In this document: piece after piece, positions 49,538 to 54,121 of the stretch | Position numbering within the stretch: position 1 is the stretch's first letter | Layout of the letters: the number at the start of each line of letters is the position of its first letter | Assembly: GCA_022792555.1 (NCBI GenBank) | Contig: JAAWBF010000086.1 | Location: 1-64,000 of the forward strand | Reading direction: 5' to 3' | Length of the DNA stretch: 64,000 nucleotides | Source: Oscillospiraceae bacterium | GTDB taxonomy: Bacteria > Bacillota > Clostridia > Oscillospirales > Oscillospiraceae | The notes under the pieces: model-generated | The model's input: only the letters and a program-made list of their open reading frames with translations | Databases searched by the model: none | What the model was told of the DNA's origin: nothing | Translations under genes and position numbers: made by a program

Positions 49538-51232
49538 TTACTGGAGGAGCTGGAGAACACCCTGGGGAACCTGGTTCGCCTGGGCCAGCATGGCCTGAGC
49601 GGACTGGATCAGGATGTTGTTTTTGGTGTAAGCCATCATCTCCTCGGCCACGTCGGTGTCGCGGATGGTGGACTCGGCGTCCTGGATGTTCTCGGTCATG
49701 ACGGACAGGTTGTTGATAGTGTGGTCCAAACGGTTCTGGGTGGCACCCAGAGTACCGCGGACATCGGACACTTGGTTAATGGCAGCCTTGATCTTGGCAA
49801 TGGCCTCCACTGCGCCATCCTGAGTGCCAATATTAATTTTATCAATACCAAGGGCAGCGCAATGCATATCACCAATATCTACCTTCAGTTGGTTGAAGGA
49901 GTCAGCGGTATCGCCGATCTGGAGCTGCAGGCTCTTGCCGGTAGCGGCACCGGGAGCGCCGATCTGAACAATGGCTTCGGAGGTCTTTAGGTTCTTCCAA
50001 GTGGCGTCGGTAGCGGTGGAGGTTGGACCGGTCAGATCCCACTCGCTGTAGTCCTTCAGGGCACCCTTCTTCTCAGTCAGATATACTTTTCCACTATTAC
50101 CATCGGCGGTGATGTCAAACAGCTTGTTGTTCTTCTGGCTCAGCAGCTTGGCCGCCTCGGTAGCCAGAGATGCGTAGGTTTCCTCGTACATGGACAGGTC
50201 GATGACGGTGCCGCCGCCGCCCACGCCATCCTTACCGATCTTGAAGGAGTAGGTCTCGTTGCCAATCTTGATGGTAGTGCCGTCTTTGAGTCCAGACAGA
50301 GTGAAGTTGCCCTGGGCTAGTTTTTCGTCGCCAGCGGCGGCCACAGGCTTGTCGTGGTGGACGGCCAGGTCATAGCCGTTGTTACTGGTGACGTCAGTAG
50401 ACGCCGGGTCAATGCCACCAGTAAGCGCGGTCGCGTAGAAGGTTTCCTCCGCATCGGTGGTGGGCACCACCTTGCCAGTCAGCTTGATTTTGCCGTCGCC
50501 GGCGTCGCTGACGGTAAAGGTGAGACTGTTGATAGTGACTTCGCCGGCGGTCAGGGACAAGGTGAGGTCAGAGAAACTGACTGTCTCTCCCTTGCTGACC
50601 GTACCATTGAGGGTACCAAGCGTCACACCAGCCACAGTGATCGTGGCCACCGTAGCATTAGCTATGGAAGTGCCGGTGGCTGCCAGCTTCAGAACCAGAT
50701 CGCCTACATCAATGGTGAGTTCGCCCTTCTCGCCAGCTCCAGTGCCACGTAGGCCATCTTCTGTTTTGGTAATAGTCGCATCAGTGAACTCAACAGCGCC
50801 CTTGCCGCTCATAGAGCCGTCCAATAGCTGGATACCGTTAAAGTTGGAGGAGTCGGCGATACGGTTGATCTCGCTGCGGAGCTGATCCACTTCCTTCTGG
50901 AGCTGGGCGCGGTCAGTGGTATCCTCATAGGTGCCGTTAGCGGACTGGGTAGCCAGCTCCACCATACGGTTGAGCATGTCATGGACCTCAGTCAGAGCGC
51001 CCTCGGCGGTCTGCACGAGAGAAATGCCGTCCTTCGCGTTCTTCTGGGCAGTCTCCAGGCCGGTGATCTGGGCGCGCATCTTCTCAGAAATGGCCAGACC
51101 AGCGGCGTCGTCACCGGCGCGGTTGATCTTGTAACCGGAAGAGAGCTTCTCCAGGTTCTTCTTCATGGCGGAGACGTTGTTGGTGTAGTTGCGATAGGCC
51201 GACATAGCCATTATATTGTGTTGAATCCTCAT
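49538..51232 (-). CDS. fliC: flagellin
   Basis: 564 residues. N-terminal D0/D1: MRIQHNIMAMSAYRNYTNN, LEKLSSGYKINRAGDDAAGLAISEKMRAQ and LVQTAEGALTEVHDMLNRMVELATQSANGTY (quoted in parts). C-terminal D1/D0: LGATQNRLDHTINNLSVMTENIQDAESTIRDTDVAEEM, ending in LAQANQVPQGVLQLLQ. The about 280-residue variable centre (about 140-430) is Thr/Gly/Lys-rich, a possible target for glycan or sulfate modification. The ATG at 51232 has GGAGG eight bases before. The csrA gene lies 158 bp upstream; I found no convincing promoter between them, so it may be cotranscribed. Confidence 0.96.
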   Translation of the reverse strand: MRIQHNIMAMSAYRNYTNNVSAMKKNLEKLSSGYKINRAGDDAAGLAISEKMRAQITGLETAQKNAKDGISLVQTAEGALTEVHDMLNRMVELATQSANGTYEDTTDRAQLQKEVDQLRSEINRIADSSNFNGIQLLDGSMSGKGAVEFTDATITKTEDGLRGTGAGEKGELTIDVGDLVLKLAATGTSIANATVATITVAGVTLGTLNGTVSKGETVSFSDLTLSLTAGEVTINSLTFTVSDAGDGKIKLTGKVVPTTDAEETFYATALTGGIDPASTDVTSNNGYDLAVHHDKPVAAAGDEKLAQGNFTLSGLKDGTTIKIGNETYSFKIGKDGVGGGGTVIDLSMYEETYASLATEAAKLLSQKNNKLFDITADGNSGKVYLTEKKGALKDYSEWDLTGPTSTATDATWKNLKTSEAIVQIGAPGAATGKSLQLQIGDTADSFNQLKVDIGDMHCAALGIDKINIGTQDGAVEAIAKIKAAINQVSDVRGTLGATQNRLDHTINNLSVMTENIQDAESTIRDTDVAEEMMAYTKNNILIQSAQAMLAQANQVPQGVLQLLQ

Positions 51233-51390: not shown

Positions 51391-51756
51391 CTAACGAGTC
51401 GGCTCTGCTGCGTTCTCTTCCGATCCCGGCGGGAATATGTGGTTTAACTGCCGACGCAGGGCTTTTACATCATCATCCCTGCCGTCCATCTTGGACAACA
51501 ACGTCCGCATGGCGGCAAGGGCCTGTGCCTTGCTCCGGTTCCATGGGATTTCCGGCCTGTGCCAGCGGGTAGCGTCAAACACACAGTCAGGGCGTTTTCC
51601 GCCTGCGCGCTCCAGGACCTCCCCCCGCACAACGGGGATCTCTCTGGGGGCCTGGATTAGGAGTTTACAGTGGTCTCCCGACATTCGGTCGAACTGGAGC
51701 ACGACATCACTGCCGACGGTCACATATTCTCCTGGCGCAAGAGATAAGCAGAGCAT
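51391..51756 (-). CDS. csrA: CsrA-family RNA-binding regulator with C-terminal extension
   Basis: 121 residues. The first 52 match CsrA: MLCLSLAPGEYVTVGSDVVL, then IQAPREIPVVRGEVLERAG, including the key Arg of the last strand (PVxRxE). The two N-terminal arginines of E. coli CsrA (R6, R7) are absent. The remaining 65 residues are an unusual Arg/Asp-rich tail. Ordinary CsrA is 60-75 residues. It lies directly upstream of flagellin, as in Bacillus csrA-hag, and probably represses flagellin translation. FliW, its usual antagonist, is not in the window. AGGAG lies ten bases before the ATG. Confidence 0.8.
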   Translation of the reverse strand: MLCLSLAPGEYVTVGSDVVLQFDRMSGDHCKLLIQAPREIPVVRGEVLERAGGKRPDCVFDATRWHRPEIPWNRSKAQALAAMRTLLSKMDGRDDDVKALRRQLNHIFPPGSEENAAEPTR

Positions 51757-51963
51757 CGCATTTCAACTCCTTTTACAGTTCAGCGGTACGACAATCCCTT
51801 CTCCCGCTCTCAAAAGCCGCTCTCTGCGGCGTAGACGAAACAGTTCATCGTCATAATATTGGGGACACCCGCCACTGCCTGGCCCACGCAGTACAGGCGT
51901 TGGATTCTGGCAGAACGGCGCGCTTCCAGCGTGCGCACACACTGTCTCGTTTCCCACCCTTTG
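51757..51963. other. spacer between csrA and the guide-RNA-like region
   Basis: About 200 bp. It has an imperfect CGCGC...GCGTGCGCACACACTGTC block (about 51925-51950), also present near 8971-8990, and should hold the csrA promoter, but I cannot identify a good sigma-A or sigma-28 site. Confidence 0.4.
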
Positions 51964-52102
51964 GCCCGGTGAACGCTAATTGATACGGAATCCCTCGATT
52001 GCGCATCAATCAACGCTCCCGCAGCCGGAAAATGGGCGCTGACCGGCGTCCCAACCGGCGAGGCGGCGTCAGCCGCCGGTTCTAAGAAACTGTTTCAATC
52101 GA
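51964..52102 (-). ncRNA. candidate guide RNA (omega/reRNA-like) of the TnpB-like protein
   Basis: It starts at the end of the tldR-like gene (and probably overlaps its last codons) and is on the same strand, the standard place for TnpB guide RNAs. Predicted parts: a GC hairpin (ACCGGCG...CGCCGGT, 52080-52054), then GGCTGCGG at about 52025, a 13-bp stem closed entirely by Watson-Crick and G-U pairs (about 52016-51973) and a scaffold end at TATCAA (51985-51980). GGCTGCGG and a (T/A)TCAA end recur in the same order in the IS605 remnant at 54490-54680. The predicted guide then begins TTAGCGTTCACCGGG (51979-51965). The exact boundary is inferred. Confidence 0.5.
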
Positions 52103-53281
52103 TCAAGCGCTTTCTCGCTGCGCCTGTGTCCTGAAATATTGGTGCAGGCCCTGGGCCTTGATATTTTTGGCGGCGTTGACCTCCCGATTGTGGGCTGTAC
52201 CGCACTTGGGACAGGTCCAGGCAGTTTCCCTGGCGCCCAGCTCCTCCCGGACCAGTCCACAGACCGAACAGGTCCGCGTGGTGGGGACATAGCGGTCCAC
52301 CACGAGGAACTGCTTCCCCTGCCGGGCCAGCTTGTATTGTAAGCATGTTCGGAATGCCCCAAATCCACCCTCCAACGTGTTCCCGCGCTTGACACGCTGG
52401 GACATCGCCTGAATGGAATCACCTCTCACACATATGGCGTCCCAGACGTTGGCTATCCGCCGGGATTCCTTATGAAGGAAGTCCTTTCGCTGATTGGCGA
52501 TGTGTTCATGGAGCAGACGGTATTTTTGAACCGCCTCTTGATAGTTCTTGGAACCGGGCTGCATCCGGGAGAGCTTTTGCTGGAGCTTGGTCAGCTTCTC
52601 CTGTGACTGCTTCAGCCAGCGGGGCGGATCGGCCATGGACCCATCGTCAGCCACATAAAAGTGCTGCATGGAGTATTTCAGACCGGCTGTCGTTTCTTCT
52701 GTTGGCACAACCGCTTGTGGCTTTTTGACCGCGCACTCGTACAGAATGGCACAGGTATATTTGCCGGTTCGAGTCTTTTCCACGGTGATGCGCTTGAGCT
52801 TCCACCAGGCTTGGGGGCGGCGGGAGAACTTCGCTTTCACAATCCCCGCCTTGGTCATGCGGATACCATCCTCTGTAATATAGATGGTGGGCCCAGATTC
52901 GAACTCATGATTGCACGCCGTAAACGAACTGTGGTCTGTTTTCTTTTTCTTAAATCTGGGATATCCAAAGGACTCCGGATTTTTGAAAAATACCCGGAAC
53001 GCCTGGGAGAGCTTATTGTGCTCCTGGATGAGGGCCTGATTGTCTACCTCCCTCAGAAATGGAGCGCCATTTTTATACTTGGCTGGGGTTGGAATGAAGT
53101 GCTTCCCCGTGGCGAGGTAAAAGTATTTCTGGTCTGAAAGCATTTGGTTCCAGATATACCGGCAGCAGCCGAAGGTCCTTTCAAACAGTTCTGTCTGAGC
53201 CTTATTCGGATAGAGCCGGACTTTGATGGTGTTATACTGGAGTATTTTGCCGTCTGCGACAGCAGCTTTCTTCCATGCCAT
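52103..53281 (-). CDS. tldR: nuclease-dead TnpB homologue (TldR-like RNA-guided repressor)
   Basis: 392 residues of the IS200/IS605 TnpB family, with the helical N-terminal part (about 15-110) and the WED/REC-like region intact. All three RuvC catalytic positions are changed: GLDYS to GLKYS (K202), VEDL to VRGD (R286), and HDRDVNAA to HNREVNAA (E367). The zinc ribbon (Cys 338, 341, 357, 360) is kept. The frame is open and undamaged, so selection has preserved a binding protein without cleavage. Such TnpB-like nuclease-dead repressors (TldR) are known, and one clade sits beside flagellin genes in enterobacterial prophages. ATG 53281 follows GGGAG by nine bases, and the invertible segment begins 19 bp upstream. 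Confidence 0.85.
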   Translation of the reverse strand: MAWKKAAVADGKILQYNTIKVRLYPNKAQTELFERTFGCCRYIWNQMLSDQKYFYLATGKHFIPTPAKYKNGAPFLREVDNQALIQEHNKLSQAFRVFFKNPESFGYPRFKKKKTDHSSFTACNHEFESGPTIYITEDGIRMTKAGIVKAKFSRRPQAWWKLKRITVEKTRTGKYTCAILYECAVKKPQAVVPTEETTAGLKYSMQHFYVADDGSMADPPRWLKQSQEKLTKLQQKLSRMQPGSKNYQEAVQKYRLLHEHIANQRKDFLHKESRRIANVWDAICVRGDSIQAMSQRVKRGNTLEGGFGAFRTCLQYKLARQGKQFLVVDRYVPTTRTCSVCGLVREELGARETAWTCPKCGTAHNREVNAAKNIKAQGLHQYFRTQAQRESA

Positions 53282-53299: not shown

Positions 53300-53330
53300 G
53301 GGCCACGCAAAAGGTATGGGTTTTGCGTGG
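53300..53330 (-). repeat. left inverted repeat of the invertible segment (hix-like)
   Basis: 31 bp, exact inverse copy of 53419-53449. It contains a 28-bp dyad with 10-bp perfect arms CCACGCAAAA around an 8-bp centre. Hin/Gin-type crossover sites have the same form: 26-bp palindromes with AAAACC-like half sites next to a two-base core. Confidence 0.8.
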
Positions 53331-53418
53331 ACGGCTGAAAGGATAAATTTTTTTGAAATGGGGCTTAATTTTGCCTAATAAATGTCCGATACAAAGGGTG
53401 AACACAGTGGAAATAAGG
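53331..53418. other. invertible segment carrying an outward promoter
   Basis: 88 bp between the exact inverted repeats. In the given orientation its promoter-like signals read on the plus strand, away from the tldR-like gene. Flipping would point them at it, with the start about 70 nt upstream of its ATG. No convincing promoter faces the gene in the present orientation. Confidence 0.7.
53353..53392 (+). promoter_or_regulatory. promoter signals inside the invertible segment
   Basis: Two overlapping readings. A sigma-28 type site: TAAT (53366-53369), 15 bases, TCCGATAC (53385-53392), close to TAAA-N15-GCCGATAA. A sigma-A type site: TTGAAA (53353-53358), 17 bases, TAATAA (53376-53381), with a weak -10. 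A sigma-28 site would tie the switch to the flagellar regulon. Confidence 0.5.
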
Positions 53419-53449
53419 CCACGCAAAACCCATACCTTTTGCGTGGCCC
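53419..53449 (+). repeat. right inverted repeat of the invertible segment (hix-like)
   Basis: Exact inverse of 53300-53330 over 31 bp; begins 37 bp from the end of the invertase gene. The close linkage of site pair and invertase is typical of Hin/Gin-type switches. Confidence 0.8.
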
Positions 53450-53485: not shown

Positions 53486-54121
53486 TTAAGTCTTCAAACC
53501 GCCTTTCGGCACCGTTTCAAGACTTGCGCAATATTCCCGTGCCCTGCGCAGGAACGTATCGCGGGACATATTCAGTTTCTCAGCTGCGGTGCTGGCGGAA
53601 ATACCGCCCTCTCGCCACAGTTGAGCCATATTCCGAAACCCGGACGGCGGCGTCAAACGCTCCCGCCCAAACCGCACGCCCCTGGCCTTCGCCGCTGCGA
53701 TTCCCTCTGCCTGCCGCTGGCGGATGTTTTCCCGCTCCGTCTGGGCCACATAGCTGAGGAGCTGGAGCACAATGTCGGCAATCAGCGTTCCGATTAGGTC
53801 GCGTCCCTGCCGGGTGTCCAGCAGAGGCATATCCAGAACCACAATGGATGCTTTGCGTTCCTTGGTGATGTAAGCCCACTGCTCCAAAATTTCCTCGTAA
53901 TTGCGCCCCAACCGGTCAATGCTTTTCACCACCAGCACATCCTCCATCCCCAGCCCTTTTACCAAACGCTGATAGAGAGGACGGTTGAAATTCTTCCCGG
54001 AGAGCTTTTCTGTAACGATATTTTCTTCCAATACCCCAAACTCCCGCATCGCAGCCAGCTGCCGCGCTTCGTTCTGCTCCCGGGTGGACACCCGTATGTA
54101 GCCGTAAGTATTGCCATCCAT
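53486..54121 (-). CDS. Hin/resolvase-family serine recombinase, probable DNA invertase
   Basis: 211 residues. Small serine recombinase: nucleophile Ser in GYIRVSTREQN (residue 12), conserved Arg in VVKSIDRLGRNYEEI (about 68-71), TERENIRQRQAEGIAAAKARG on the dimer helix (about 128-148), and a C-terminal helix-turn-helix (GISASTAAEKLNMSRDTFLRRA, shortened). The size fits invertases/resolvases (180-210), not the large integrases. The paired hix-like sites lie 37-186 bp downstream. GGAGG lies eight bases before the ATG. It may flip the promoter segment that controls the TnpB-like gene. No Fis-type enhancer is identifiable. Confidence 0.88.
   Translation of the reverse strand: MDGNTYGYIRVSTREQNEARQLAAMREFGVLEENIVTEKLSGKNFNRPLYQRLVKGLGMEDVLVVKSIDRLGRNYEEILEQWAYITKERKASIVVLDMPLLDTRQGRDLIGTLIADIVLQLLSYVAQTERENIRQRQAEGIAAAKARGVRFGRERLTPPSGFRNMAQLWREGGISASTAAEKLNMSRDTFLRRAREYCASLETVPKGGLKT

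Follow-up and report, generated by a model that had tools for sequence, protein, structure and literature searches.

A probable Hin-type promoter inverton upstream of tldR, csrA and a flagellin gene in an Oscillospiraceae bacterium

Positions 53300-53449 of a 64,000-nucleotide stretch of DNA from an Oscillospiraceae bacterium (the whole stretch is hereafter called the window) very probably constitute a Hin-type promoter inverton, whose ON state would drive tldR, a guide RNA, csrA and the flagellin gene fliC and thereby bring about flagellin phase variation. The hin-csrA-tldR switch was first described in 2026 by Walker et al. (PMC13418256). As far as the accessible text of that paper goes, the window matches the published arrangement feature by feature and therefore belongs to an already described module. 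Here we add evidence of flipping in relatives, ON and OFF paralogues within the same genome, and a possible rule for the spacing of the recombination sites.

The segment is bounded by a tldR-proximal site (53300-53330) and a hin-proximal site (53419-53449), which are 31-nt arms with 100% complementarity separated by an interior of 88 bp (53331-53418); the exact 31-bp inverted copies reported in an earlier note on this DNA were thus confirmed, as was the 28-bp dyad in each arm (53303-53330 and 53419-53446). The dyad has the form CCACGCAAAA-GGTATGGG-TTTTGCGTGG with exact 10-bp half-sites, and its two copies lie 116 bp apart from centre to centre, or 11 helical turns. In the 2.75-Mb genome, with up to three mismatches allowed, the pattern was found at the two arms only, and a search of IMG/VR with the exact arm pattern returned zero matches. 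The pair scored 24/24 matches within the 31-bp exact arm, while no pair from shuffled upstream regions got as far as 19/24, so that a chance origin of the arms is negligible. The dyad centre, AT, is a palindromic dinucleotide, which alone would not enforce inversion over deletion. The start codon of tldR is at 53281, with 18 bp between the ATG and the proximal arm; the distance of 19 bp given in the earlier note is corrected accordingly. The description of the sites as hix-like holds for their layout (a dyad with a 2-bp centre); they are probably not hix sites proper, and each paralogous locus has a sequence of its own.

The interior carries a sigma-28 (FliA)-like promoter motif, TAAT-N15-TCCGATAC (53366-53392, + strand), with TAAT at 53366-53369 and TCCGATAC at 53385-53392. 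As tldR is encoded on the - strand, the motif points away from the gene, as was claimed before, and the orientation in the window is OFF. A FliA-like -10 element occurs within 30/34 site pairs, a figure somewhat inflated by a choice of site pairs that favoured motif-bearing ones, and in 10% of shuffled interiors (rate 0.10). A sigma-70 consensus scan of the segment gave no sigma-A-like site, and the second promoter proposed earlier is therefore unsupported.

The order of transcription on the - strand is serine recombinase, inverton, tldR, guide RNA, csrA and fliC, with csrA and fliC directly downstream of tldR. The recombinase gene (53486-54121, - strand; PF00239, 2e-28) encodes a hin-like serine recombinase of 211 aa, in which R10, S12, D69, R70 and R73 are invariant across 14 relatives, with an N-terminal Resolvase domain and a C-terminal helix-turn-helix. 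By sequence, its best matches among solved structures in the PDB are Sin and Tn552 Bin3, with Gin further down. The adjacent invertase gene that was held to complete the set is thus a real recombinase gene with conserved catalytic residues, and its role as an invertase is predicted.

An alignment with the structures of ISDra2 TnpB covers most of the TnpB-like protein (52103-53281, - strand; PF07282, PF01385, PF12323). In its RuvC domain, K202, R286 and E367 stand in place of D191, E278 and D361, respectively, the catalytic residues of ISDra2 TnpB. The K and R positions are kept in 17 relatives (64-79% identity), which fits a domesticated, nuclease-dead TldR; the dead TnpB of the earlier note is borne out by the loss of the RuvC triad, and TldR (RNA-guided repressor) is the better term. 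Downstream follow a predicted guide RNA (51843-52102, - strand, boundaries inferred) with a scaffold ending in the guide-like CCCAATATTATGACGATGAA (about 51844-51863), csrA (51391-51756, - strand; PF02599, 1.5e-13) and the flagellin gene of the module, fliC (49538-51226, - strand; PF00669, PF00700), which encodes 562 aa from an ATG at 51226.

The conserved region after tldR has a guide-like 3' end, CCAATATTATGACGATGAA, similar to fliC codons 5-11. When compared with the flagellins of its own genome, this sequence scored 15/20 against the flagellin on contig C49, 14/20 against the adjacent fliC and 12 against that on contig C168, differences so small that the choice of target is only a suggestion. 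No perfect guide target was found in this genome, a metagenome-assembled genome (MAG) in which just one complete flagellin and two partial ones are present. Judged from sequence, the C49 flagellin is put forward as a candidate for repression by TldR, and a flagellin as guide target agrees with the published targeting of alternative fliC ORFs by TldR, as given in the accessible text. A guide starting right after GGGAAACGAGA was considered and dropped, as a conserved stem-loop occupies that position and the guide-like sequence is located closer to the 3' end. An Rfam search of 49-57 kb gave no credible match. The C49 flagellin gene, truncated where its contig ends, is preceded by a FliA-like site (TAAA-N15-GACGATAG) and stands alone, without a neighbouring hin, tldR or csrA.

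Scanning of genome contigs yielded 35 loci with TldR, almost all from Oscillospiraceae, and a strong match was present in 18/401 genomes of a family-wide search. The order hin-site-tldR-csrA-fliC is kept in most of the 35 loci, as judged from those long enough. At 34 distinct loci, the window included, tldR is preceded by an inverted site pair, and orientation by motif was OFF in 20, ON in 8 and ambiguous in 2.

The clearest evidence for flipping comes from a single locus sampled in two metagenomes, once in a MAG (L038, OFF) and once on an IMG/VR contig (L070, ON), whose flanks are collinear and approximately 95% identical. Over a stretch of 180 bp the two differ by 72 mismatches when compared directly and by 0/180 once L038 is inverted between the dyad centres; all best breakpoints fall in one 10-bp interval that includes the dyad centre, and the half-sites are swapped as predicted by strand exchange at the centre. 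In a cultured isolate of Oscillibacter, the loci L040 and L068 are 99.5% identical from -71 into tldR and carry the inverton in opposite orientations at 94% identity. Between species, a site-bounded segment is inverted within collinear flanks in L043/L051, L053/L055, L004/L059, L052/L079 and others. The window compared with L054 is a weaker case, with the homologous interior inverted at 61% identity (E 2e-8). The window copy is known in one orientation, from a MAG consensus, and its genus is represented by this genome alone; its own flipping is proposed by analogy. The earlier reading of an invertible promoter is supported by relatives that carry the segment in either orientation between collinear flanks, by the half-site exchange and by the conserved sigma-28-like motif.

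Two paralogous invertons occur in the genome of the window. Contig C168 carries hin-inverton-tldR-csrA-fliC with sites TTTGTAAA... that are 115 bp apart, in the ON orientation, and contig C36 carries a divergently oriented hin with sites GCACAGAA... that are 126 bp apart, in the OFF orientation, and a tldR truncated by the contig end. The locus-specific site sequences suggest that each recombinase may serve its own sites. Contigs C133 and C182 of the same genome encode two further hin-like recombinases, near which neither a tldR nor a clear site pair was found.

The distances between site centres are quantised. In the 34 loci registered by their dyads they are 114-116, 124-127 or 136-138 bp, and 25 further pairs, obtained in a blind scan that allowed spacings of 80-160 bp or 50-400 bp, gave 95, 114-116, 126-127 and 135-139 bp. 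Taken together, the 59 site pairs group into classes (95, 114-116, 124-127 and 135-139 bp) that correspond to integer numbers of helical turns. A V-test on the held-out 25 pairs, for which the period was set to 10.5 and the phase came from the 34-locus set, gave V = 0.82 and p = 3.6e-9, a p-value that overstates independence because the loci are related. The spacing classes are common to different site types, and sampling one per class was still significant over 20,000 draws. These distances suggest that the two sites have to be aligned on the same DNA face and that synapsis is by direct loop closure. We lean, with some reserve, towards a general rule for short Hin-type invertons of gut Firmicutes, namely that the centres lie 9, 11, 12 or 13 turns apart and that a loop of 95-139 bp is closed directly, with both sites on one DNA face and without the remote-enhancer geometry of Salmonella Hin. 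Phasing of the enhancer is known from Salmonella (PMC3798978), and the accessible text of Walker et al. (PMC13418256) mentions neither hix nor helical phasing and contains no site sequences or spacing rule. If upheld, the rule would offer a simple and quantitative way to examine how sites closer than DNA stiffness easily allows are joined by serine invertases, and would aid in finding such switches in other genomes.

TnpB-like proteins derive from IS605/IS607-type elements, dyads are known at the ends of such elements, and the recombinase in the window is of the serine type, as in IS607. The dyads might on these grounds belong to a transposable element around tnpB, as its ends or as remnants of it, and play no part in inversion, an explanation we regard as extremely improbable: the two dyads are on the same side of tldR, no TnpA ORF is found next to tnpB, the genome contains no other copy of the dyad when three mismatches are allowed, the domain order of the recombinase is the reverse of that in IS607 TnpA, and inversion between the sites is seen in relatives. 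The inverted interiors, together with the half-site exchange and the quantised spacing, are also left unexplained if the hairpins serve only as RNA structures, one as a terminator after hin and the other as a leader hairpin before the Shine-Dalgarno sequence of tldR. This is very improbable as a full account, even though a strong hairpin is predicted for the tldR leader (-29.9 kcal/mol, z -2.5) and the distal arm is overlapped on the + strand by a weak terminator-like site; a role of the hairpins in RNA may be a secondary effect rather than an alternative.

It is likewise improbable, if somewhat less so, that the window holds a former inverton locked OFF, in which the sites persist and the copy no longer flips. 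The ON form of the window copy has never been seen and OFF is the commoner orientation among relatives, but the recombinase is intact and retains the conserved residues of catalysis, the arms are still identical over 31 bp and better kept than in most relatives, and tldR, csrA and fliC are all open.

As a functional Hin-type promoter inverton, the region would operate as follows. The adjacent serine recombinase would bind the two dyad sites, join them by closure of the short loop, cut at the central 2 bp and invert the segment. In the OFF state read here the sigma-28-like promoter is directed away from tldR, and after inversion it would drive tldR, the guide RNA, csrA and, by transcription through the module, the local fliC when flagellar genes are expressed. 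As the local fliC is produced, guide-bound TldR would act at the start of the ORF of another flagellin and repress it, resulting in flagellin phase variation. Such a switch would join DNA inversion to an RNA-guided repressor, and in gut commensals a single inversion could swap flagellins at the levels of transcription and translation at once.

According to the accessible text of Walker et al. (PMC13418256), Flavonifractor plautii and Oscillibacter carry hin directly upstream of csrA-tldR with a linked fliC, the invertons consist of an inversion of approximately 120 bp with a FliA-dependent promoter, the guide is aimed inside fliC ORFs, and several hin-csrA-tldR loci occur per genome; one strain of Oscillibacter has four loci with csrA-tldR. 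The window copy differs from these in species, in its 116-bp site spacing, in its exact 31-bp arms and in the half-site CCACGCAAAA. It resembles Salmonella Hin/hix (fljBA-fliC) in having a serine recombinase, inverted dyad sites with a 2-bp centre and an invertible flagellar promoter, and in the expression of a repressor of the other flagellin along with the alternative flagellin. Unlike that system, the segment is approximately 116 bp rather than approximately 1 kb, hin lies outside it, the promoter is sigma-28-like, the repressor is RNA-guided TldR with CsrA, and the site sequence is probably distinct; the two systems are similar in layout. The Enterobacter prophage fliCP-TldR (Wiegand et al. 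2024; PMC13418256) shares a nuclease-dead TnpB, a guide RNA and an adjoining flagellin gene with the window; in contrast, it is phage-encoded and apparently constitutive in the laboratory, and the accessible text describes no tldR inverton for it.

Some further features were observed among the related loci. The central dinucleotide of the site pairs is mostly AT or GT and apparently tracks two hin sequence groups. Two hin-like loci, L121 and L125, have three dyad sites each, at 127+127 bp and 94+95 bp, and nested invertons are possible there. A second short ORF lies between the inverton and tldR in L035 (-409..-80 relative to tldR), L036 (-441..-40), L038 and L070 (-505..-56) and, in decayed form, L041; it corresponds to the C-terminal half of Hin only (a long helix plus helix-turn-helix), without the catalytic domain. 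As the inverton lies upstream of this ORF in L035, L036 and L038/L070, the ON promoter would drive it, and its product might regulate the switch by binding DNA.
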